Origin: a virus
Strand: one strand, 5' to 3'
DNA length: 29,164 bases
Virus record (IMG/VR): IMGVR_UViG_3300017783_000141
Location: 1 to 29,164 of that record
Part shown: positions 6,383-28,664 of the stretch, one piece after another
Position numbering within the stretch: position 1 is the stretch's first letter
How the letters are laid out: the number at the start of each line of letters is the position of its first letter
Notes under the pieces: model-generated
Told to the model about the DNA's origin: nothing
Database searches by the model: none
The model's input: only the letters and a program-made list of their open reading frames with translations
Program-made: the position numbers and the translations under genes

Positions 6383-6901
6383 ATGACAGAAAAAGAAAAA
6401 TTTATAGAAATATGTAATTTAACTACTAATATAGTAGGACTAGATAAAGGATCTTTAGCTGAAAAAACTAGAAAAGAAATAGTACATACACCTAGAATGG
6501 TAGCTAGTCTTGTTGGTAGAATGATAGAAGATATACACCCTACAACTATAGCTAAAATAATTAAAAGAGATAGAACATCTGTTTTGCATTATGAAAAATG
6601 TCATAGTATGTACTATACTTCTGATCCTAAATATAGAGAACTATTTAATAAAGTTTATAATATTTACTTTGATATAATCAAATTAAAGAAAAAATTTGAA
6701 TCAAAAGATAAGATTAGAATGTTATTAGTTAAATCAGGTATAGATGTTAATATTAAGAAACCACAAGTATATATTATAATAAAAAGTGGATCTATAGTTT
6801 ATAAATTAAAAACTAATTATTTTTATTGTTCTGAAAATATTAATACAATAAAAGATGTTTTCAAAGATTATAATTATACTTTAGAAATAAAAACTATATG
6901 A
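6383..6901 (+). CDS. DnaA domain IV-like DNA-binding protein
   Basis: 172 residues. Residues 30-75 resemble the DNA-binding domain IV of the initiator DnaA: TPRMVASLVGRMIED (36-50), then RDRTSVLHYEK (62-72), which parallels the DnaA signature RDHTTVxHAxxK. The AAA+ ATPase part of DnaA is absent. Residues 105-172 form a separate Lys/Tyr-rich region of unknown fold. Such domain-only proteins could bind DnaA boxes to recruit or exclude the host initiator, or act as regulators. It overlaps the next gene, the putative initiator, by four bases, which points to a role in replication start. Confidence 0.72.
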   Translation: MTEKEKFIEICNLTTNIVGLDKGSLAEKTRKEIVHTPRMVASLVGRMIEDIHPTTIAKIIKRDRTSVLHYEKCHSMYYTSDPKYRELFNKVYNIYFDIIKLKKKFESKDKIRMLLVKSGIDVNIKKPQVYIIIKSGSIVYKLKTNYFYCSENINTIKDVFKDYNYTLEIKTI

Positions 6902-7530
6902 AAGAGAAACCAAATTACTATGCTATTTTAACTGCTAATGTTAGATATAATAAAAATCTAACACCTAATGCTAAATTACTTTTTGCAGAAATAACTGCTT
7001 TAGAGAATATGAATGGTCAATGTTTTGCAAGTAATAGATACTTTGCAGATTTATATAATGTATCTAAAACAAGTATATCAAAGTGGATAAGTCAATTAGA
7101 ATCATTTGATTGTATAAAAACTACATATACATACAAAGAGGGTAGTAAAGAAATTGATAAGAGGTATATAACAACTATTAAAGGGGGTATTGAAGAAAAG
7201 TTAAATAGGGGTATTGAAGAAAAGTTAATAGATAATAATACAAGTATTAATAATAATATTACATATAGTAATAAAAGGGAGTTTTTTAAAAAACCAAATG
7301 TTTTAGAAATTAAGGATTATTGTTTAGAAAGAAATAATAATATAGATGCTGATTCTTTTTTTGATTTTTATGAATCTAAAAATTGGTTTGTAGGAAAAAA
7401 TAAAATGAAAGATTGGAAAGCTAGTATAAGAACTTGGGAGAGAAGAAGTTTAGATCAATCTAATAAAAGTAAAATAAAAACACAGGTATCAGAATGGGAA
7501 AAGGCAAAGAAATATATAGAAAAAATATAA
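6898..7530 (+). CDS. Helix-turn-helix replication initiator / replisome organiser candidate
   Basis: 210 residues. The N-terminal domain (about 1-95) is a winged-helix type seen in phage and plasmid initiators: LTPNAKLLFAEITALEN (21-37), then NRYFADLYNVSKTSISKWIS with the recognition helix. A linker (about 95-130) is Asn/Ile-rich and contains the duplicated GIEEKL. The C-terminal domain has FFDFYESKNWFVGKNKMKDW followed by KASIRTWERR, like the DnaD-type C-terminal region of phage replication proteins. By analogy with lambda O it would bind the origin and recruit helicase. The linker-coding DNA carries a perfect 21-bp direct repeat. Confidence 0.72.
   Translation: MKEKPNYYAILTANVRYNKNLTPNAKLLFAEITALENMNGQCFASNRYFADLYNVSKTSISKWISQLESFDCIKTTYTYKEGSKEIDKRYITTIKGGIEEKLNRGIEEKLIDNNTSINNNITYSNKREFFKKPNVLEIKDYCLERNNNIDADSFFDFYESKNWFVGKNKMKDWKASIRTWERRSLDQSNKSKIKTQVSEWEKAKKYIEKI
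7184..7275 (+). repeat. Candidate origin: 21-bp direct repeat plus AT-rich stretch inside initiator gene
   Basis: The 21 bases at 7184-7204 (beginning GGGGTATTGAAG) recur exactly at 7208-7228 with a 24-base period. Directly downstream, 7229-7275 is almost pure A/T (runs of AATAAT and ATATT). Iterons followed by an AT-rich unwinding region in the linker part of an initiator gene is the architecture of the lambda origin. Only two copies are present, fewer than in lambda, so this is a candidate. Confidence 0.45.
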
Positions 7531-8914: not shown

Positions 8915-9277
8915 ATGACAAAACCCATTTTTGCAAATACTATGCATCAAATAATTGTCAATGATTATTTAAACTTGATGTTGTCTTTTGTAAAAGAAAT
9001 TTCTACTAAAACAAAATACCAAAATTTTAAAGAAGTACTAGAACTAATTATTGAATATCACAATAGTTATGGAGAAGATGTTACTGTAATTTCAGGTAAT
9101 TGGAATGATTGGTTAATGATAATACCTGTAAATACTTCTGTAATGGTCAATGGTTTTTTTGCAGGTATATCTACTAAAAGCAATTCAGAAATTATAAAGT
9201 CTTATAAACTTTTATTAGACAATAGTTTAGAACTATTAGTAAGAGATTTAAAAGAAATAGAGTTTACTAATGAATAA
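8915..9277 (+). CDS. Unknown protein upstream of sigma-like factor, 120 aa
   Basis: Mixed alpha/beta protein without membrane segment. It has a helical N-terminal half (NDYLNLMLSFVKEIS), a central strand region (VTVISGNWNDWLMIIPV, about 56-72) and a helical end. I recognise no family. The start is uncertain (Met1 or Met10) because a possible promoter sits directly upstream. The last eight bases overlap the sigma-like gene, so the two are translated together, and it may modulate that factor. Confidence 0.58.
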   Translation: MTKPIFANTMHQIIVNDYLNLMLSFVKEISTKTKYQNFKEVLELIIEYHNSYGEDVTVISGNWNDWLMIIPVNTSVMVNGFFAGISTKSNSEIIKSYKLLLDNSLELLVRDLKEIEFTNE

Positions 9278-9824
9278 GATTTATCAAGCAGTAGCAAATT
9301 GTAGAGAAACATTTGTAGAGATGTCTTACACTTTTAGTCAAGATGTAAATGAAATACAAGAAACTGTTTCAGAATTAATGCTTTATTTTTTACAGATGAA
9401 TCCTGATACTCTTAGATCTATTTATGAAAAAGATAATAAAAAAGGTATATTAAGTTATGGCGCAGTAGTTTTAAGAAGAAGTTTTACAAGTCCTAGAAGT
9501 CCTTATTATTATAAATACAAAAAGTATTATACACATATTGATAGTAGATCAAGTAATATAACTTATGATAATTCAGATGTATATCATAAAAAACATTTAT
9601 ATAATATACCAAATCCTAATGAATTTCAACAATGGCAAAAGTTAGAGCAAATCGATAAAGCATTAGATGATTTTTATTGGTATGATAGAGATGTATTTAA
9701 ACTCTATTATTATGAGGGTAATACACTTAGTGGACTTGCAAAGAAAACAGGTATAAGCAGGAACAGTCTGTTTACAACTATAGATAAAGTAAGAGAACAA
9801 TTAAAAGAATTGCTAGATGAATAA
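9270..9824 (+). CDS. Sigma-70-like factor (phage-encoded)
   Basis: 184 residues. Residues 25-45 (DVNEIQETVSELMLYF) suit a degenerate sigma region 2 helix. Residues 139-180 are a convincing region 4 helix-turn-helix: DRDVFKLYYYEGNTLSGLAK, then GISRNSLFTTIDKVREQL. A Tyr-rich, poorly conserved linker joins them. Such proteins redirect host RNA polymerase to phage promoters. The window has five copies of one 17-bp start-site motif in front of structural blocks, a natural target for it. The gene is coupled to both neighbours by overlaps. Region 4 call is good; region 2 is weak. Confidence 0.72.
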   Translation: MNKIYQAVANCRETFVEMSYTFSQDVNEIQETVSELMLYFLQMNPDTLRSIYEKDNKKGILSYGAVVLRRSFTSPRSPYYYKYKKYYTHIDSRSSNITYDNSDVYHKKHLYNIPNPNEFQQWQKLEQIDKALDDFYWYDRDVFKLYYYEGNTLSGLAKKTGISRNSLFTTIDKVREQLKELLDE

Positions 9825-10218
9825 GTTTTTTGTAAGTGATGAGGTTTACAAAGATAGACTTGACATCTGTAAAGGTTGTGATTATTATTTTAGACCTACG
9901 GGTTCTTGTAAAATTTGTTTGTGTTTTATGTCAATCAAGGCACGAATCAGTTTAATGGAATGCCCACAGAAGTATTGGTTAAAGACTAAGGAACTTGAAC
10001 AACCTGTAGGAATACCTGAAGAATTAATTGAAGAAGTATTACTAATATGGGAAGATATTAAAACAGGGATAGCTAAAAATCAAGCAGTAAAAAAGAGAAT
10101 GATTACTCTTTACAACACTATATATGGAACAAATTATAAAACAAACACAAGTTGTGGAACTTGTTTAAATGATACTTTTAAAGGAATTAAAATAATATAT
10201 GAAAAATACAGAAGATAA
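9817..10218 (+). CDS. Cysteine-rich zinc-binding-like protein, 133 aa
   Basis: The N-terminal part has CKGCDYYFRPTGSCKICLCF (18-37), a CxxC plus CxxCxC cluster, with a further Cys at 49. Near the C-terminus is SCGTC (112-116). The paired clusters suggest one or two zinc sites. Similar CKxC...CxxCxCfm proteins are common in Bacteroidota phages and remain uncharacterised. It overlaps the sigma-like gene by eight bases, so it may help in transcription control, for instance as a co-activator. That is inference from context. Confidence 0.62.
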   Translation: MNKFFVSDEVYKDRLDICKGCDYYFRPTGSCKICLCFMSIKARISLMECPQKYWLKTKELEQPVGIPEELIEEVLLIWEDIKTGIAKNQAVKKRMITLYNTIYGTNYKTNTSCGTCLNDTFKGIKIIYEKYRR

Positions 10219-10444
10219 AACACCAAATTATTATACAGGAAAAGTTTATGGATATAAAGCATTTGATATAATAGAGGACTATGCATTAAATTATAATTGT
10301 GCAACTGCACTTACTTACATTTTAAGAAGTGATAGAAAACATAATACACCTGATGAGTGTTTGCAAAAAGCAATAGATCATCTAAATAATGAATTAAAAA
10401 ATTTAAAAAAGAAAAAAAAGAAAGTTAGAATAAGTCATATTTAA
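10199..10444 (+). CDS. DUF3310 family protein (T7 gp1.7-like)
   Basis: 81 residues. It follows the DUF3310 pattern: PNYYTGKVYGYKAFDIIEDY (9-28), a helix with the CATALTYILRSDRK motif (34-47, the counterpart of GNxxKYxxRxxxK), then LQKAIDHLNNEL and a lysine-rich tail. The T7 member gp1.7 is a nucleotide kinase acting on thymidylate-type substrates; most other members are untested. A nucleotide role would fit a phage that alters its DNA precursors. The stop codon lies in the base of the large inverted repeat that follows. Confidence 0.72.
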   Translation: MKNTEDKTPNYYTGKVYGYKAFDIIEDYALNYNCATALTYILRSDRKHNTPDECLQKAIDHLNNELKNLKKKKKKVRISHI

Positions 10445-10760: not shown

Positions 10761-10777
10761 TTCTATTATATACTATG
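10761..10777 (+). promoter_or_regulatory. Late-type promoter motif, copy 1 (before parB-like gene)
   Basis: TTCTATTATATACTATG, whose last three bases are the start codon of the ParB-like gene. It is one of five near-identical copies in the window. If TATTAT is the -10 element, transcription would begin about at the ATG, giving a leaderless message. Confidence 0.65.
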
Positions 10778-11506
10778 AAACTAGAAATCAATAAGTTAAA
10801 ACCAAATCAAGCTAATCCAAGAATTATAAAAGATAAAAAGTTTAAAAAGCTTATTAAGTCTATAAAAGAATTTCCTGAAATGTTAGATCTTAGACCTATA
10901 GTAGTTGATGAAGATATGACAATCTTGGGTGGTAATATGAGATATAAAGCTTGTATAGATGCAGGACTAAAAGAAGTTCCTGTTACTATTGCTAAAGGTT
11001 TAACTGATGCACAAAAGCAAGAGTTTATAGTAAAAGATAATGTAGGGTTTGGAGAATGGGAATGGGATATGTTAGCTAATGAGTGGGATAGTGTTCAACT
11101 TGCTGAATGGGGTTTAGATGTATGGGAAAATCAAGATGATGTAATAGAAGAAGAAGAAGAAACATATACTAGAAAAATTGTAGCACCAACTTATGAACCA
11201 AAAAATAAAAAACCTGAATTAGAAGATTTGTTTAATACAGATAAAGCAGATGAACTTATACATAAAATTAAACAAGCTAAATTAAGTGAAGAAGAAACAT
11301 TATTTTTAAGTCATTGTGCATTAAGACATACAGTATATGATTATAGTAAAATAGCTGATTTTTATGCACATTCAAGTAAAGAAATTCAAAAACTTATGGA
11401 AGATTCTGCTTTAGTTATTATAGACTTTGATAAGGCAATAGAAAATGGATATGTAAAACTGACTAAAGAAATAGCTGCAGCATATAAAAAGAATGGCATA
11501 TTATGA
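10775..11506 (+). CDS. ParB/sulfiredoxin-like domain protein
   Basis: 243 residues. The N-terminal domain (1-110) is a ParB-like fold: LKPNQANPRIIKD (8-20), LRPIVVDEDMTILGGNMRYK (39-58) with the GGNMR nucleotide-site motif (52-56), and VKDNVGFGEWEWDMLANEW. This fold binds or hydrolyses nucleotides, and phage versions are often near methylase, DNA-modification and terminase genes. An acidic linker (about 128-140) leads to a helical C-terminal domain (150-243) with LSHCALRHTVYDYSKIADFY. It overlaps the glycosyltransferase gene by four bases. A DNA-binding or modification-targeting role is likely; partition is unlikely because no ParA is seen. Confidence 0.8.
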   Translation: MKLEINKLKPNQANPRIIKDKKFKKLIKSIKEFPEMLDLRPIVVDEDMTILGGNMRYKACIDAGLKEVPVTIAKGLTDAQKQEFIVKDNVGFGEWEWDMLANEWDSVQLAEWGLDVWENQDDVIEEEEETYTRKIVAPTYEPKNKKPELEDLFNTDKADELIHKIKQAKLSEEETLFLSHCALRHTVYDYSKIADFYAHSSKEIQKLMEDSALVIIDFDKAIENGYVKLTKEIAAAYKKNGIL

Positions 11507-12363
11507 TAGATAAAGATTTTGCAGTATTTATTTTAACTTATGGTAGAGCAAATAATGTTAAGACATATAAAACCTTAAAAAGATTTGGATATACAGGTAA
11601 AATATATTTAATCTGTTCAGATGATGATAAGCAAGTTAAAGATTATAAAGAAAAATATAAAGATCAAGTAATAGTATTTTCTAAAAAAGACTATAAAGAT
11701 AAATTTGATATTGGAGATAATTTTGATGATGAAAGGGTTGTTGTTTATGCTAGAAACTCTTGTTATGATATTGCAAAGAAATTAGGTATAACATACTTTT
11801 TAGTATTAGATGATGACTACACAGACTTCAGCTATAGATTTAATGATGAATTATCTTACAATAAAGGTAGAGGTTATATAAATAAAGTAGATGATATATT
11901 TAAAGCAATATTGAAATATTATAAATCAATTCCTGCAAAAACTATAGCACTATCCCAAAATGGAGATTGGATAGGTGGACAACATAGTGGTTGGGCAAAA
12001 GAATTAAAGCTTAAAAGAAAATGTATGAATAGCTTTTTTTGTAGTACAGAAAGACCATTTAAATTTATGGGTAGAATAAATGAAGATGTTAATGCTTACA
12101 CATTACTTGGAAGTACAGGAGATTTATTTTTAACTATACCTAATGTTTCTTTAAAGCAAACAGATACACAAAGTAATGATGGTGGATTGACAGACATCTA
12201 TTTAGATCAAGGAACTTATGTAAAGTCTTTTTATTCAGTAATGTTTTGTCCTTCATCTGTAAAGGTAGGTATGCTAAATACTGAAAGGTCAAGACTACAT
12301 CACAGAGTAAGTTGGAACAATGCAATCCCTCTTATATTAAATGAAAAATATAAAAAACAATGA
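11503..12363 (+). CDS. Glycosyltransferase, TET/JBP-associated (TAGT)-like
   Basis: 286 residues with a GT-A type pattern: a first strand and loop FAVFILTYGRANNVKTYKTL (6-25), then VYARNSCYDIAKKLG (81-95), a strand ending in the acidic motif LVLDDDYTDF (100-109, Asp103-105) that would hold the metal and sugar nucleotide, and later WIGGQHSG and INEDVNAY segments. The RGRA-like loop, ARN and DDD spacing match the phage TAGT class described by Aravind and colleagues, proposed to glycosylate hydroxymethylated bases in DNA. The position between ParB-like and terminase genes is also what is described for that class. No base hydroxylase or hydroxymethylase is visible here. Other acceptors remain possible. 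Confidence 0.65.
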   Translation: MIDKDFAVFILTYGRANNVKTYKTLKRFGYTGKIYLICSDDDKQVKDYKEKYKDQVIVFSKKDYKDKFDIGDNFDDERVVVYARNSCYDIAKKLGITYFLVLDDDYTDFSYRFNDELSYNKGRGYINKVDDIFKAILKYYKSIPAKTIALSQNGDWIGGQHSGWAKELKLKRKCMNSFFCSTERPFKFMGRINEDVNAYTLLGSTGDLFLTIPNVSLKQTDTQSNDGGLTDIYLDQGTYVKSFYSVMFCPSSVKVGMLNTERSRLHHRVSWNNAIPLILNEKYKKQ

Positions 12364-12713
12364 ACAAAGATAGACACATAAAAAAGGAATCAATATTAGC
12401 AGCATTAGAAAAGTCTTTAGGTGTTGTTACTGTAGCTTGTAAACAAGCAGATGTTCCACGTTCAACATATTACAAGTGGTTAAATGAAGATGAGGAATTT
12501 GCAAAGGCAGTTAAAGATATTGAAAACATAGCATTAGACTTTGGGGAAAGTCAATTACATAAACAAATAGGAGATGGTAATACTTCAGCTACTATATTCT
12601 TTTTAAAGACTAAAGGAAAGAAAAGAGGTTATGTAGAAAGAAATGAAGTAGATCTTACATCAGGAGATGAACCAATTAAAATTAATGTAAATATCAAAGG
12701 GGTTGAATATTGA
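12360..12713 (+). CDS. terS: Terminase small subunit
   Basis: 117 residues. The N-terminal helix-turn-helix (12-50) has ALEKSLGVVTVACKQADVPR and STYYKWLNEDEEFAKAV, typical of small terminase subunits that recognise the packaging site. A central helix (55-75) probably makes the ring, then NTSATIFFLKTKGKKRGY (74-91), which recurs in phage TerS proteins, and a flexible C-terminus for contact with the large subunit. It is coupled to the glycosyltransferase gene by ATGA and overlaps the large subunit by 11 bases. Confidence 0.87.
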   Translation: MNKDRHIKKESILAALEKSLGVVTVACKQADVPRSTYYKWLNEDEEFAKAVKDIENIALDFGESQLHKQIGDGNTSATIFFLKTKGKKRGYVERNEVDLTSGDEPIKINVNIKGVEY

Positions 12714-14013
12714 TACTGAATTTACTCATACTCAAGGACAAGCAATAGAATACTTATTTGATAAGAAAACAACAGAAGTATTATTTGGTGGTGCAGCAGG
12801 TGGTGGTAAGTCTTGGGTAGGTTGTAGTTGGTTAATTCTATTATGTATTAAATATCCTAAGACTAGGTACTTAATGGGTAGGTCTAAGCTAGATAGTTTA
12901 AAAAAGACTACTCTTAATACTTTCTTTGAAGTTTGTCAGACTTGGGGAATCTTAGCTAATAAGCACTACAATTTTAATGCAGGTTCTAACATCATAAAGT
13001 TTTATAATGGTAGTGAGATAATACTTAAAGACTTGTTTCTATACCCATCAGATAGGAACTTTGACAGTCTAGGTTCATTAGAAATTACTGCTGCTTTTAT
13101 AGATGAAGCAAATCAGATAACAGAGAAAGCAAAGAACATAGTAGCTTCTAGAATGAGATACAAGTTAGATCAATATGATTTAATACCTAAACTTTTAATG
13201 ACTTGTAACCCTGCTAAAAATTGGGTTTATACTCAATACTATAAACCTGCTAAAGAAGGAGTAGAGAAAGACCATAGAAAGTTTATACAAAGTCTTGTAG
13301 ATGATAATCAATTTATTTCTAAGCATTATAAATCACAACTACTTACTTTAGATGAATTAAGTAAACAAAGACTATTGTATGGTAATTGGGAATATGATGC
13401 TACTAATGATAACTTAATAGAATATGATGCAATACTAAACTTATTTAATCAAACAGGAATAGAAGGAGATAAATACATAAGTTGTGATGTAGCAAGGTTT
13501 GGAAGTGATAAGACAGTTATAATGTATTGGGAAGGGTTACATATTAAAAAGATAAGAACTATGCTTAAATCAGCTATAAATGAGGTTGTAGAGCAAATAA
13601 GGTTATTACAACAACAATATAGTGTAAGATTGACTAACATAATAGTTGATGAAGATGGAGTAGGTGGTGGAGTTAAAGATTATATGAGATGCAGAGGTTT
13701 TATAAATAACTCTAAAGCTTTAAAAGGAGAAAACTATCAGAACTTAAAAACACAATGTTATTACAAATTAGCTGATTTAGTTAATACTGCACAGATTGGA
13801 ATAGAATGTAGTGATATAAATATTAAGAATCAAATTATTGAGGAGTTAGAGCAGGTAAGAACTAAAGATGCTGATAAAGACAACAAACTAAAGATAATAC
13901 CTAAAGAAACTATTAAAGACATAATAGGTAGATCTCCTGATTATGCAGATGCTATAGCTATGAGAATGTTTTTTGAGTTAGATGCTAATTATGGAAGATA
14001 TTTTGTGCAATAA
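12703..14013 (+). CDS. terL: Terminase large subunit (ATPase and nuclease)
   Basis: 436 residues from a TTG start inside the end of terS; this start keeps the segment ahead of the ATPase. Walker A is GGAAGGGKS (29-37) and Walker B is AAFIDEAN (130-137, Asp134 and Glu135). A coupling motif, MTCNP (166-170), follows. The RNase H-like nuclease has acidic residues in SCDVARFGSDKT (Asp262), IIVDEDGVGG (Asp316/Asp318) and SPDYADA (Asp413/Asp416). The enzyme pumps DNA through the portal and cuts concatemers. All key residues are present. The gene ends where a predicted minus-strand RNA terminates. Confidence 0.95.
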   Translation: MNIDTEFTHTQGQAIEYLFDKKTTEVLFGGAAGGGKSWVGCSWLILLCIKYPKTRYLMGRSKLDSLKKTTLNTFFEVCQTWGILANKHYNFNAGSNIIKFYNGSEIILKDLFLYPSDRNFDSLGSLEITAAFIDEANQITEKAKNIVASRMRYKLDQYDLIPKLLMTCNPAKNWVYTQYYKPAKEGVEKDHRKFIQSLVDDNQFISKHYKSQLLTLDELSKQRLLYGNWEYDATNDNLIEYDAILNLFNQTGIEGDKYISCDVARFGSDKTVIMYWEGLHIKKIRTMLKSAINEVVEQIRLLQQQYSVRLTNIIVDEDGVGGGVKDYMRCRGFINNSKALKGENYQNLKTQCYYKLADLVNTAQIGIECSDINIKNQIIEELEQVRTKDADKDNKLKIIPKETIKDIIGRSPDYADAIAMRMFFELDANYGRYFVQ

Positions 14014-16299: not shown

Positions 16300-16820
16300 T
16301 GAATGCTTTAGAGAATTACTTAAATAGATTTGGTGCTAGTGTAGTAAATAAAACTATTGGTAATCTTAAAAGAAAGAAAAAAGTAGTTACAGGTGCATTA
16401 GTTAATAGTGTAAGTTTTGAACTTAAAAAAACTAATGATGGTTATCAAGTAGATTTTATGATGCTTGACTATGGAGATTTCATTGATAGAGGAGTTTCAG
16501 GAAGTAAAAAGAAAAGATCTTACATAGACTATGAAGGTAAAAAACAAAGCAGTCCTTTTTCTTTTGGTAAGTCAAGAGATGGTGGATTAACTAGAGGATT
16601 AGATAAATGGATTGTAATGAAGGGTATAGCACCTAGAGATGAAAAAGGTAGGTTTATATCAAGAAAGAGTTTAAAGTTTTTAATTGCTAGAAAGATATAT
16701 ACACAAGGTAAAGAAGGTCTAGCATTTTTTCAAAAACCATTAGGTTTAGAATATAAAAGAATGGCAAGTGAAATAGGTAAAGCAGTTAAATTAGATATAA
16801 TACAAAATTTAGGAAAATGA
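16299..16820 (+). CDS. Tail completion protein, HK97 gp10-like candidate
   Basis: 173 residues. A helical N-terminus (LENYLNRFGASVVNKTIGNL) precedes a basic stretch (KRKKKVVTGALVNSV), then DYGDFIDRGVSGSKKKRSYI (57-76). The GxLxxSV...DYGxFIDxGVxG pattern is typical of gp10-like neck or tail completion proteins. A basic loop region and FQKPLGLEYKRMASEIGKAV (145-164) follow. Such proteins finish the neck or tail after assembly. It overlaps the next gene by four bases. Confidence 0.65.
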   Translation: MNALENYLNRFGASVVNKTIGNLKRKKKVVTGALVNSVSFELKKTNDGYQVDFMMLDYGDFIDRGVSGSKKKRSYIDYEGKKQSSPFSFGKSRDGGLTRGLDKWIVMKGIAPRDEKGRFISRKSLKFLIARKIYTQGKEGLAFFQKPLGLEYKRMASEIGKAVKLDIIQNLGK

Positions 16821-18286
16821 GTATAATAATAGAACAAGAACCACTATATAAAACATTACCTGTAGGACAGGATATAATATTTACAGTATCAAGTGATGTA
16901 TTGGTGGCTACAAAATATAATGTAAAATTTACTGCTCAAATATTTATAGATAGAGAATCAAGTAATATTTTTAATCCAACATCTTTAGTAGCAACTTTAA
17001 AAGTAACACCTAATAATACAGGTAGGGGTATATTTAGTTTACAACCTATATTAGAGAGTTATGTATCTCCACAACAAGAGGGAGTTGATTTTTTTCAAGC
17101 TAGTATTAGTCAGTTTAAGGGAACTTACTACTCAGAAGATAACCCACACCCCATACATATAATAGATAAATATTGTGTAAATACTAATAATGTAAGATAC
17201 TTTGGAATATCTTTTAATATAGAATACTATGATACTGCTGATTTAGTTGGAAAACCTAAAAGTTATTTAAAACCTTTTAATTCAATTATCTTTTTATATT
17301 TTAATGGTGTTATAAATTATGATGCAGTATTACAGTATATTAAGGGTAATTATGGTTTTAACTTAAACAAAGATAAATCAGTATTAAATAACTACTATGG
17401 AACTTTAGGTAAGTTTTTAAGTGATGCACCTTTAACACAATATGCTAAATTAACTGACTATGGAACTATATCATTTTTAAATTGGTTAAATACATCATCT
17501 TATAGTTTTGAAGTAGGGGGTACAAGTGCTACTGATAATATGGTTAAAAAGATACAAGTAAGTTTATTTAATAATTTAGGTAATCAAATGGGTGTTTTTG
17601 ATATAGATTGTACTGATGTAAATGGTGGTTTTCAATATAGTACAGATTTTGCAGAAGCTAGATTAATATATTTTGGTGGTTTTCCTGCAAATTTTGATGG
17701 TGCAGGTTATAGTATATGGAACAGTTTTAAAGCAAATACTTCTTTTTATACTTTAGTTGCTTTTGATGATAATAATGATGCTATCAGTCAAACATATACA
17801 GTCAATATAATTGGTAATAGTTGTAAAGGTTTTGAAAGCATAAGACTAACTTGGCTTAATAGCTTTGGTACTTGGGATTATTACACATTTAAAAAGAAGT
17901 CAGTTAAGTCTTTACAAACTAATAGAACATCATATACACAACAAAGTGGTACTTGGAATCAAAAAAAATATAAAATTAGAGGTTACAAAGGGGGTAAGAA
18001 AAACTTTAGAGTAAACACTAAACAATTAATAAGTATAAATACTGACTTCATAGATGAAGATGAAGCAGTATGGTTTGAAAACCTAATAAATAGTACAGAT
18101 GTATATATGCTTAATGGTTATGATGGTAGTTTAGATGATAATAATTTTGGTATTACAAACAAATATGTAGAACCTGTTACAGTAACTACATCAAGTTATA
18201 CTAGAAAGACAAAAGCAAATGACAAATTAATACAATATACATTTTCAATAGAAAAATCACATAATAAAAGAACACAATCAGTATAA
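16817..18286 (+). CDS. Tail protein, distal tail / baseplate-like candidate
   Basis: 489 residues, beta-rich throughout, without signal peptide or enzyme motif. The N-terminal half has several strand-loop units (PVGQDIIFTVSSDVLVATKY). A marked segment GFESIRLTWLNSFGTWDYYT (333-352) precedes a C-terminal third with IRGYKGGKKNFRVNTKQLIS. The FESIRLTWLNSFGTWD-type motif recurs in large tail-tip proteins of Bacteroidota phages. It lies between the completion protein and the 917-residue tip protein, consistent with a distal tail component. Overlaps with both neighbours imply coupled expression. Confidence 0.58.
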   Translation: MSIIIEQEPLYKTLPVGQDIIFTVSSDVLVATKYNVKFTAQIFIDRESSNIFNPTSLVATLKVTPNNTGRGIFSLQPILESYVSPQQEGVDFFQASISQFKGTYYSEDNPHPIHIIDKYCVNTNNVRYFGISFNIEYYDTADLVGKPKSYLKPFNSIIFLYFNGVINYDAVLQYIKGNYGFNLNKDKSVLNNYYGTLGKFLSDAPLTQYAKLTDYGTISFLNWLNTSSYSFEVGGTSATDNMVKKIQVSLFNNLGNQMGVFDIDCTDVNGGFQYSTDFAEARLIYFGGFPANFDGAGYSIWNSFKANTSFYTLVAFDDNNDAISQTYTVNIIGNSCKGFESIRLTWLNSFGTWDYYTFKKKSVKSLQTNRTSYTQQSGTWNQKKYKIRGYKGGKKNFRVNTKQLISINTDFIDEDEAVWFENLINSTDVYMLNGYDGSLDDNNFGITNKYVEPVTVTTSSYTRKTKANDKLIQYTFSIEKSHNKRTQSV

Positions 18287-23858: not shown

Positions 23859-24587
23859 CCTTGTAAAAAATGTGGAAAAAAATGGAAATGGGGAGAAAAA
23901 GGAGAGTGTAAATACGATTCTAAAGAAGCTTGTGAAAAAGCAAACCCAAAACACTATGAAAGTCTTAAAAGCACTAAGATAGTGGAATTAGTAATTAGTG
24001 ATGATAGTGAAGAACTAACTATTGATGCTATTAGTCTAGTAACAAGTCCTGCAATCGAGCAAGACTTTGTATTCTTTGGTAAAGAAAAAAACAACTTAAC
24101 TTTTGCTAAGATAGATGAAGAAAAAAGAATGTTAGTTAGTCCTGCATTAATTCCTAACAAACAGATATTTAGATATGATCCTAATACAGATTCTGATTAC
24201 TATGTCTATTTTTCTAAGGACACAGTAAAACAAGCCGCTGAACTTTATTTAAAACACAATAACCATCATAAAGCAACTTATCAGCACGAGGAAAGAGTAT
24301 CAGGTGTTTTAACTATAGAATCTTGGATTAAAGAAGGAGATATGGATAAGTCAAAAATGTATGGTTATGACTTACCAAACGGAACTTGGTTCGTTAAGAT
24401 GAAGATAGAGAATGATGAGATGTGGGAAAAAATTAAGGGTGGAGAACTTCGTGGTTTAAGTATCGAAGGATATTTTATTGATAAGATGGAGAAGATGTCT
24501 GAAACAGTAAAACCAACTAATGAGGAGATTTTATCAGCACTTAATGAAATCATACAAGACATCAAAAATCAAACAAACGATAAATAA
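23856..24587 (+). CDS. XkdF-like head maturation serine protease
   Basis: 243 residues. The N-terminus (1-34) is a cysteine-rich module, MPCKKCGKKWKWGEKGECKY followed by DSKEACEKANPKH, suggestive of a zinc knuckle. The protease domain runs from about 40 to 212: IDAISLVTSPAIEQDFVFF (56-74) leads into the fold, TYQHEERVSGV carries His144, and LRGLSIEGYF carries Ser202. This His/Ser pair in that order is that of the XkdF/S78-type prohead proteases, which process scaffold and capsid proteins during maturation. The scaffold-like gene and the major capsid gene follow. The third catalytic residue is not assigned. Confidence 0.8.
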   Translation: MPCKKCGKKWKWGEKGECKYDSKEACEKANPKHYESLKSTKIVELVISDDSEELTIDAISLVTSPAIEQDFVFFGKEKNNLTFAKIDEEKRMLVSPALIPNKQIFRYDPNTDSDYYVYFSKDTVKQAAELYLKHNNHHKATYQHEERVSGVLTIESWIKEGDMDKSKMYGYDLPNGTWFVKMKIENDEMWEKIKGGELRGLSIEGYFIDKMEKMSETVKPTNEEILSALNEIIQDIKNQTNDK

Positions 24588-24600
24588 TTCTATTATATTA
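24588..24600 (+). promoter_or_regulatory. Late-type promoter motif, copy 4 (before scaffold-like gene)
   Basis: TTCTATTATATTA, one base after the protease stop. Unlike the other copies it does not end in the start codon; the ATG is at 24616, leaving a short leader. This separation indicates that the motif is a promoter rather than just a translation-start context. Confidence 0.6.
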
Positions 24601-24615
24601 AAAAAAGAACTCACA

Positions 24616-25317
24616 ATGGATTTAAAAAAACAAATATTAGTAGCACTTGGTCTTGATAAGCAAGATGAGGTAGCTTTAGAATATCAAGCAAAGTTAGAGG
24701 ACGGTACTTTAATAGTATCTACTTCTACAAATTTAGAAGCAGGTGTGGATATATCTGTTTTAACTGAAGATGGCAGCACAATGCTATTGCCGATTGGTGA
24801 ATACAAGACCGAAGAAGGTCAAAGATTCAAAGTAGAAAAGGAAGGTGTTGTGGCTGAACTTTATGAAGATGAAGTTGAAAAGGAAACAGAAGGAGAACCT
24901 GTTAATGAGGAAATGGGTAATGATAAAGAAGAAGATGAGTATGAAGATGATGGTAAAGAAGCTGATGTAGAAGATTGGGCAGGTATGGAAAAACGTATCA
25001 AAAACCTTGAAGATGCAGTAGCTGATTTAAAGAAAGACAAAGTAGGAAATGATGAAACTGAAGAATCAGATGTAGAAATGGAATCTGAAACTACAGAAGA
25101 ACCAACTCCTAAAAAAGTAAAAACTACAGAGGAGATAGAATTTGAATATCAAGCTAAGATAGATGAATTAAAATCTAAGGTTGTAGAGTTATCTAACCAA
25201 CCTGCTGATACTCCTGTAGATACTAATAAGTTTAGCACAGACAAAAAAGATTTTACTCCTGATCTAAGAAAAATGACTAAGAGAGAAAGAATCTTATATA
25301 ATTTAACTAATAACTAA
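24616..25317 (+). CDS. Scaffold-like capsid assembly protein
   Basis: 233 residues from the ATG at 24616. An in-frame ATG at 24520 lies inside the protease gene and upstream of promoter copy 4, so it is not used here. The protein is very acidic (about 80-140), with coiled-coil segments MEKRIKNLEDAVADLKKD and EYQAKIDELKSKVVELSNQ. The C-terminus has DFTPDLRKMTKRERILYNLT, probably the part that docks on the capsid protein. Its place between protease and major capsid, plus acidity and coiled coil, fits a scaffold that is removed at maturation. Resemblance is general. Confidence 0.66.
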   Translation: MDLKKQILVALGLDKQDEVALEYQAKLEDGTLIVSTSTNLEAGVDISVLTEDGSTMLLPIGEYKTEEGQRFKVEKEGVVAELYEDEVEKETEGEPVNEEMGNDKEEDEYEDDGKEADVEDWAGMEKRIKNLEDAVADLKKDKVGNDETEESDVEMESETTEEPTPKKVKTTEEIEFEYQAKIDELKSKVVELSNQPADTPVDTNKFSTDKKDFTPDLRKMTKRERILYNLTNN

Positions 25318-27722: not shown

Positions 27723-28664
27723 ATGTTAGCATTAGCAAACAAGCTAACCCTATCAACACAACCTACCTATAGGTTTGTAAATAAGTATTCTATTGACTTT
27801 GATGGAGTAGATGACTGTATAGTTACTGATGGTGCAGATACTGTAGCACAACCAACTACTTATTCTTTTTGGTGTAAAACAAGTACGACTACTCAAAATT
27901 TTGTTTTTGGACACGGTAGTGTGTTTATGGGTGGTTTTCAATTAAATAATTCAGGTAACCCTAGACCTCTTTTATATTTAGGTCTTAGTAATTATAGATA
28001 TTGGACAGACATACCTGCACAATATGATGGAGAATGGCATCATTGGGTAGTATATTCAGACACTAACGACATAACAAATTCAAAACTTTATGTAGATGGT
28101 GTTTTACAAGCTGTTACAAGTACTGTTACAGGAAGTACGACAGCATACACAGAATCATTAACTATAGGTGGCGATAAAGCATCAGGTGGTAATTACTTTG
28201 AAGGCAAGATAGATGAGTTTGCAGTATTTGACAGAGAACTTACACAAGATGAGATTACTCGTATGTATAATACTTACTACTCTCCAAACCGAGTAGCTAA
28301 TGGTAACTTTAGTCAGATAGGTAATGAAGAAGTAACTAATGGAGATTTTAGTCAGATAGGTAGTGAGTTAGTAACTAATGGCGATTACAGTTCAGGAGAT
28401 GCAGGTTGGTCAACTTCATCAGGTTGGACTTTTAATAATATTGATGCTAGTTTTGATGGTCTTGCATATCAACCTATAAGACAAGATGTAGGTCTAGTAA
28501 CAGGTAAAATATATAAAATAACATTTACTTTGAATATAAGTAGTGGTAATATGTTTTTTCAACTAGGTGGTGGTAGCACATCATATACAACAAGTGATAC
28601 ATATACTATTTATGAAGAAGCTACATCACACGCAACACTATCTGCATTTATAAGTATTTTTTAA
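27723..28664 (+). CDS. LamG-like adhesin / tail fibre, N-terminal part, ended by in-frame TAA
   Basis: 313 residues before the TAA at 28662. Residues 18-190 form a concanavalin-like LamG domain: KYSIDFDGVDDCIVTDGA (21-38), YSFWCKTS, DGEWHHWVVYSD, SKLYVDGVLQAV and the closing FEGKIDEFAVFDRELTQDEI. Next come three VTNGDFSQIG-type repeats (from about residue 191) and the start of a carbohydrate-binding jelly roll (AGWSTSSGWTF...). The frame then meets TAA, yet the same frame stays open and protein-like afterwards. It would bind host surface glycans. The short form may be a real product, or the gene may be disrupted. Confidence 0.72.
   Translation: MLALANKLTLSTQPTYRFVNKYSIDFDGVDDCIVTDGADTVAQPTTYSFWCKTSTTTQNFVFGHGSVFMGGFQLNNSGNPRPLLYLGLSNYRYWTDIPAQYDGEWHHWVVYSDTNDITNSKLYVDGVLQAVTSTVTGSTTAYTESLTIGGDKASGGNYFEGKIDEFAVFDRELTQDEITRMYNTYYSPNRVANGNFSQIGNEEVTNGDFSQIGSELVTNGDYSSGDAGWSTSSGWTFNNIDASFDGLAYQPIRQDVGLVTGKIYKITFTLNISSGNMFFQLGGGSTSYTTSDTYTIYEEATSHATLSAFISIF
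28293..28394 (+). repeat. 39-bp tandem repeat in adhesin gene
   Basis: Two full 39-base units begin at 28293 and 28332 and a third, diverging copy at 28371. Each encodes a VTNGDFSQIG-type unit of 13 residues. The in-frame period allows copies to be gained or lost without breaking the gene. Confidence 0.7.

Follow-up and report, generated by a model that had tools for sequence, protein, structure and literature searches.

TET/JBP-associated glycosyltransferases (TAGTs) were reportedly proposed by Iyer, Aravind and colleagues in 2013. Here we examine a TAGT gene and the gene directly upstream of it in the window, our term for the whole analysed stretch of 29,164 nucleotides of viral DNA (IMG/VR record IMGVR_UViG_3300017783_000141, positions 1 to 29,164). 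The TAGT of phage T6 puts glucose on glucosyl-hydroxymethylcytosine (glucosyl-hmC) in DNA, and in a 2026 survey 288 of 753 phage genomes had solitary TAGTs, encoded with neither an alpha- nor a beta-glucosyltransferase, whose role was left open (PMC13216743). ParB-fold proteins have been described beside or fused to phage DNA-modifying enzymes, in a role that is not known (PMC12783734, PMC12704722); the ParBc protein beside CmoX resembles the present case in that a ParB-fold protein directly precedes a DNA-modifying enzyme (PMC12783734). We found no paper joining ParB, a glycosyltransferase and DNA hypermodification in a literature search whose coverage did not take in the 2013 TAGT proposal. 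Our analysis shows that TAGTs include a large class that cannot be called solitary: these enzymes come with an obligate partner domain and without an acceptor-making enzyme, and some phages add sugar-nucleotide genes of their own. In the window, the pair probably constitutes a two-component phage glycosylation cassette acting on phage DNA.

The TAGT gene of the window (11503-12363, plus strand) encodes 286 residues that match the Pfam TAGT family well above threshold (PF20691; E 1.5e-33, 116.9 bits against a cut-off of 27.5), and a scan with the same profile matched 32 of 33 records, including T6, with no match in T4. An AlphaFold2 model (predicted local distance difference test, pLDDT, 85.7) has a GT-A fold that takes up all 286 residues and leaves no separate membrane domain. 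It aligns with GT-A structures at Z scores of 11-13 (GlcNAc-TI, 13.2; ppGalNAc-T2, 13.0), and its best Foldseek match is WrtF, a polysaccharide fucosyltransferase; a PDB search with the sequence returned no relative. The motifs R15, A83-R84-N85, D103-D104-D105, E194-D195 and H266-H267 are invariant in 48 relatives, with D103-D105 (11809-11817, plus strand) as the metal/donor motif and E194-D195 (12082-12087, plus strand), also found as ED in the T6 TAGT, as the probable catalytic pair. The family match, fold and motifs bear out the first-pass annotation, made from the DNA letters alone, which had read this protein as a TAGT-like GT-A glycosyltransferase with ARN and DDD motifs.

The upstream gene (10775-11506, plus strand) encodes a 243-residue protein with a ParB fold (PF02195) followed by a C-terminal domain (CTD), and sequence comparison indicates that the true partner of TAGT is this CTD and not the ParB domain. 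The CTD, a predicted helical TAGT-partner domain (residues 149-239; 11219-11491, plus strand), has R184, A194, Y197 and D217 in 91 of 91 non-redundant examples. Across 62 non-redundant ParB-CTD-TAGT cassettes, distances between CTDs correlated with those between TAGTs (Mantel r 0.38, p 0.001), whereas those between ParB domains did not (r -0.03, p 0.63). Because only the divergence of the CTD tracks that of TAGT, we regard the ParB domain as an exchangeable module and the CTD as the constant partner. The domain also occurs without ParB, in 28 open reading frames (ORFs) of the loci scanned first, which are mostly stand-alone proteins of ~130-150 residues, a few of the 28 being cut by a contig end.

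To follow the CTD through other genomes we built a profile from an alignment of CTDs alone. A CTD-seeded scan of 84,980 species genomes, with a seed that contains no TAGT sequence but was derived from TAGT-linked CTDs, returned 43 loci, and all 43 had a TAGT directly downstream or one gene away. Their hosts include Bacteroidota, Bacillota, Pseudomonadota, Actinomycetota, Kiritimatiellota, Cloacimonadota and others. Likewise, a search of the phage collection with the free-standing CTD gave 28 records, all of which are TAGT records too. The overlap is not a matter of chance: in essentially every viral locus where space allows, the gene immediately before TAGT is ParB or CTD. Together, the pattern of conservation and co-occurrence marks the CTD as the obligate partner of TAGT, apparently an undescribed one, and it may serve as the subunit that targets the enzyme.

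The ParB/sulfiredoxin-fold domain (residues 1-95; 10775-11059, plus strand), the exchangeable part, is a clear family member (PF02195; E 5.4e-8, 33.2 bits against a cut-off of 26.3), and the canonical ParB architecture TIGR00180 was not reached (25.4 bits against 58.45). The AlphaFold2 model of the full protein (pLDDT 79.9) runs from the ParB-fold domain through a linker of poor model quality to a helical CTD that is modelled with confidence. Among solved structures, its residues 1-94 most resemble CTP-bound ParB (VIA Z 12.8 with M. xanthus ParB-CTPgammaS). The first-pass assignment of a ParB-like domain upstream of TAGT stands. Structure searches with the whole 243-residue model gave lists filled by the ParB domain and no usable match for residues 149-239, and in PADLOC the sole hit was a weak one, linking the ParB part to a methyltransferase. 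The linker carries a conserved motif, Y[TS]xKxxxPxYxPxxxxP, in a stretch of low model confidence (residues 131-147; 11165-11215, plus strand; pLDDT below 50 at residues 118-135). Among the 91 non-redundant CTDs, Y131 and Y140 are each present in 89, S or T at position 132 in 88 and P138 in 90, and the motif is possibly a docking peptide or itself an acceptor.

The cassette is widespread in varied surroundings. ParB-TAGT pairs with overlapping genes occur in Lactobacillus phages jlb1, c5 and phiLdb, haloarchaeal HHTV-2, Nocardia NTR1, E. coli Rac-type prophages and a Porphyromonas phage. The ParB domain is absent in many cassettes; in Vibrio phages of 191-195 kb, for example, the upstream gene encodes 139 residues, the CTD alone, and in those of 195 kb the cassette is located in the replication region. 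Terminases or replication proteins are the commonest recurring neighbour families: the next large genes of ParB-containing cassettes are mostly terminases, and CTD-only cassettes neighbour DnaB, beta clamp, PolA and helicases. When eight phages whose hosts are unrelated were compared all against all with BLAST, ParB-CTD and TAGT were common to every one and no third family was, which makes the pair self-contained. Packaging, to which the locus had first been tied, therefore holds as a description of position in terminase-side versions, and we rejected it as a constant function because CTD-only cassettes and the Vibrio giants place the pair among replication genes.

In some prophages the cassette is extended by genes of sugar metabolism or modification. 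A UDP-galactopyranose mutase gene touches TAGT in L130 (7216-8301; TIGR00031 above cut-off) and L152 (7249-8397), which suggests a galactofuranose donor, and a NAD-dependent sugar 4,6-dehydratase-like gene and a cytidylyltransferase gene adjoin TAGT in L132 and L131, respectively. Eight loci of gut prophages (L138, L139, L142, L143, L153, L154, L155 and L157) have radical S-adenosylmethionine (radical-SAM) enzymes between TAGT and terminase, which weakly resemble MoaA, peptide maturases and viperins. In other cassettes a class-I methyltransferase lies between CTD and TAGT. Some prophage cassettes hold two to three TAGTs in tandem, and one locus (L057) has a CTD-TAGT-CTD-TAGT duplication. These extensions favour real sugar transfer, which varies by phage and sometimes goes to chains or altered sugars.

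We next considered how the acceptor might be made. The T-even TAGT (beta-glucosyl-HMC-alpha-glucosyltransferase; T6 gp043, phrog_842) and that of the window are both members of PF20691 with DDx, R and ED motifs in common, T6 having DDT in place of DDD. However, the T6 gene adjoins the gene 42 hydroxymethylase, its product extends glucosyl-hmC and it has no CTD partner; in a quick tree, the T6 and Aeromonas 65 TAGTs are very distant. The TET/JBP-associated TAGTs belong to the same glycosyltransferase family, but complete relatives of the window are without TET/JBP, C5-methyltransferase or hydroxymethylase. We searched for acceptor-making enzymes in the window, its relatives, other viral records and complete named phages. 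Tet_JBP was found in 0 of 46 records, with Mycobacterium phage Nigel detected as a control, and C5 DNA methyltransferase (DNA_methylase) in 0 of 25; Thymidylat_synt (PF00303) was found only in T4, T6, Aeromonas 65 and one 195-kb Vibrio phage, and the alpha- and beta-glucosyltransferases of T4 (AGT, PF11440; T4-Gluco-transf, PF09198) only in T4, the control.

Many IMG/VR records are fragments, and we therefore argue the absence of acceptor makers from complete genomes. Two relatives end in exact repeats, of 96 bp in G001 and 99 bp in G002, from which we take them to be complete circles (~28.1 and ~30.0 kb); both carry nearly the whole gene set of the window, and neither has Tet_JBP, Thymidylat_synt, DNA_methylase, AGT or T4-Gluco-transf. 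The first-pass annotation saw no TET/JBP dioxygenase or hydroxymethylase in the window, with which our profile searches agree, and left open an enzyme outside it. No such helper was found in the terminal-repeat relatives or in complete named phages, and the expectation of an oxidised or hydroxymethylated base made by another phage enzyme is not upheld. Separately, G002 carries DPPY-type DNA methyltransferase-like and PAPS (3'-phosphoadenosine-5'-phosphosulfate)-reductase-like ORFs (16526-18158) that are absent from the window and were named by eye.

Circumstantial evidence nevertheless makes DNA the likeliest acceptor. In other phages the slot before the terminase is taken by TET or methyltransferase genes, which favours DNA: Mycobacterium phage Nigel has ParB and TET/JBP directly before terS and terL, although its ParB lacks the CTD, and Bacteroides phage BS-TP3 has ParB and a ParB-methyltransferase there. 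DNA is also favoured by the location of CTD-only forms among replisome genes and ParB-CTD forms before terminase, and by the T6 TAGT, which glucosylates DNA and has the DDx, R and ED positions in common. As to the first-pass annotation, then, TAGT membership is secure and DNA remains the likeliest acceptor, while the expectation of another phage enzyme is not upheld. In the mechanism we propose, the CTD, fused behind an NTP-binding-type ParB fold, would be the obligate partner, holding TAGT and carrying it to phage DNA, delivered by the clamp-like ParB domain in terminase-side versions and by the replication neighbourhood in CTD-only versions. With a nucleotide-sugar as donor, TAGT would then, ahead of packaging, place a sugar on a base of the newly replicated phage DNA, where it might mask the DNA from restriction in the next host; we infer protection from restriction as the purpose. 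If DNA is the acceptor, this implies unknown DNA-sugar chemistry in common prophages, including those of about one sixth of complete E. coli genomes.

Several points weigh against this reading. The known acceptor-making enzymes are absent, which leaves ordinary DNA glycosylation without a substrate; our literature search found no nucleoside analysis of any cassette-bearing phage; and the contact between CTD and TAGT is a prediction. Protein glycosyltransferases are among the best fold matches of the TAGT model, although the acceptor is not dictated by the fold, and RefSeq names the E. coli TAGT 'GREB1-related', GREB1 being reported, in work cited in PMC10908778, to O-GlcNAcylate a protein. Those fold matches and the GREB1 precedent fit an alternative, which we think unlikely yet count as a serious rival, in which TAGT glycosylates its partner, for example at the Y-[S/T] motif of the linker or within the CTD itself, to give a glycoprotein that would be the active product. 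The strict one-to-one pairing of CTD and TAGT, the near-invariance of Y131 and S/T132 in a stretch modelled as disordered and the resemblance of some cassette radical-SAM genes to peptide maturases, among other families, also speak for it. Against it, DNA is indicated both by the surroundings of replisome and terminase genes and by the ParB-TET and ParB-methyltransferase counterparts, the motif is equally explicable as a docking peptide, and a Porphyromonas phage protein (L091) deviates from the motif yet retains TAGT. Glycosylation of a surface or small molecule, of the serotype-conversion type and unrelated to DNA, is very improbable: the GT-A fold, the WrtF match and the UDP-galactofuranose (UDP-Galf) and dehydratase genes, which also serve surface glycans, would suit it, but the commonest neighbours are terminases or replication proteins, a ParB-fold partner is a cytosolic kind of protein and the GT-A model, which takes up the 286 residues, shows no separate membrane domain.

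If DNA is the acceptor, TAGT chemistry could be conventional, with an unrecognised phage or host helper making a hydroxymethyl or other hydroxyl base; we hold this sub-case to be a minority prospect. The one DNA-acting TAGT with a known product, that of T6, does use hydroxymethylated and already glucosylated DNA, and radical-SAM or methyltransferase genes could supply a handle in some cassettes. Yet the eight unrelated phages have only the ParB-CTD and TAGT families in common, known handle makers are absent from complete genomes, and a single host helper is unlikely because the hosts in which the cassette is maintained range from haloarchaea to Nocardia. Tentatively, we suggest that CTD and TAGT could be a self-sufficient DNA-glycosylation machine that places sugar on a base not activated by another enzyme, with no hydroxymethyl handle. 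The sugar might be Galf, a deoxysugar, methylated or chain-extended in some phages, and by exchanging its targeting domains the machine would have come to occur in viruses of both bacteria and archaea.

The cassette is testable in E. coli, as an intact pair is present in Rac-type prophages of 885 of 5,426 complete genomes (~1 in 6), counted as DNA matches covering at least 80% of the query, some copies having broken frames. The order in these prophages is trkG, ynaK, TAGT, terminase, with full-length versions encoding ParB-CTD as ynaK, whereas K-12 has a truncated ynaK remnant only. RefSeq calls the TAGT hypothetical where it is not 'GREB1-related'. In E. coli KN12-1 (L162:8001-8258), ynaK is annotated as truncated and the adjoining TAGT is intact.

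The neighbours downstream of the cassette in the window are terS (12360-12713, plus strand; 117 residues), with weak matches to Sf6_terminase (E 3.6e-4) and to terminase small subunit PHROG 309 (3e-10), and terL (12703-14013, plus strand; 436 residues), matching Terminase_3 (PF04466, E 3.7e-17); we treat both as context only. ORFs and profiles confirm the four coupled genes described at the outset, which overlap by 4, 4 and 11 bases from ParB-CTD through TAGT and terS to terL. Upstream, a DUF3310-like ORF (10199-10444) had been taken as a hint of altered nucleotides; it matches PHROG 'nucleotide kinase' families (phrog_236, E 6.9e-9) and gave no match to Pfam DUF3310. Relatives G003 and G004 lack a counterpart of this ORF. 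As both retain the cassette, we place this gene outside it and rejected nucleotide supply as one of its parts.

Other observations concern annotation and the turnover of these loci. The label 'beta-glucosyl-HMC-alpha-glucosyltransferase' is given to TAGTs of phages without an HMC pathway, and Nigel gp2 (L099:776-1744), named 'queuine tRNA-ribosyltransferase' in RefSeq, has Tet_JBP as its sole match, at E 4e-6 and short of the curated cut-off. We rejected kinship between the methyltransferase that separates CTD from TAGT and the ParB-methyltransferase of BS-TP3, the sequences not being alignable. In Lactobacillus phage PMBT4, an 'adenine-specific methyltransferase' (L089:2238-3011) is actually a ParB-CTD protein. 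Phages of Lactobacillus delbrueckii (L088, L093) show decay of the cassette: the TAGT of phiLdb is annotated as two ORFs, ParB is missing in Ld17 and only remnants are left in Ld25A. A 45.8-kb phage contig (G011, IMGVR_UViG_3300008952_000091) carries four TAGT-like and three ParB-fold genes, with a CTD in one pair only (listed coordinates 6752-7249, 9038-9460, 24584-25249 and 27856-28374). Finally, the 'DNA modification methylase' of Streptococcus phage Javan28 (L160:3477-4556), upstream of terminase, is ParB_N joined to DUF4417, another exchange partner in the slot before terminase.

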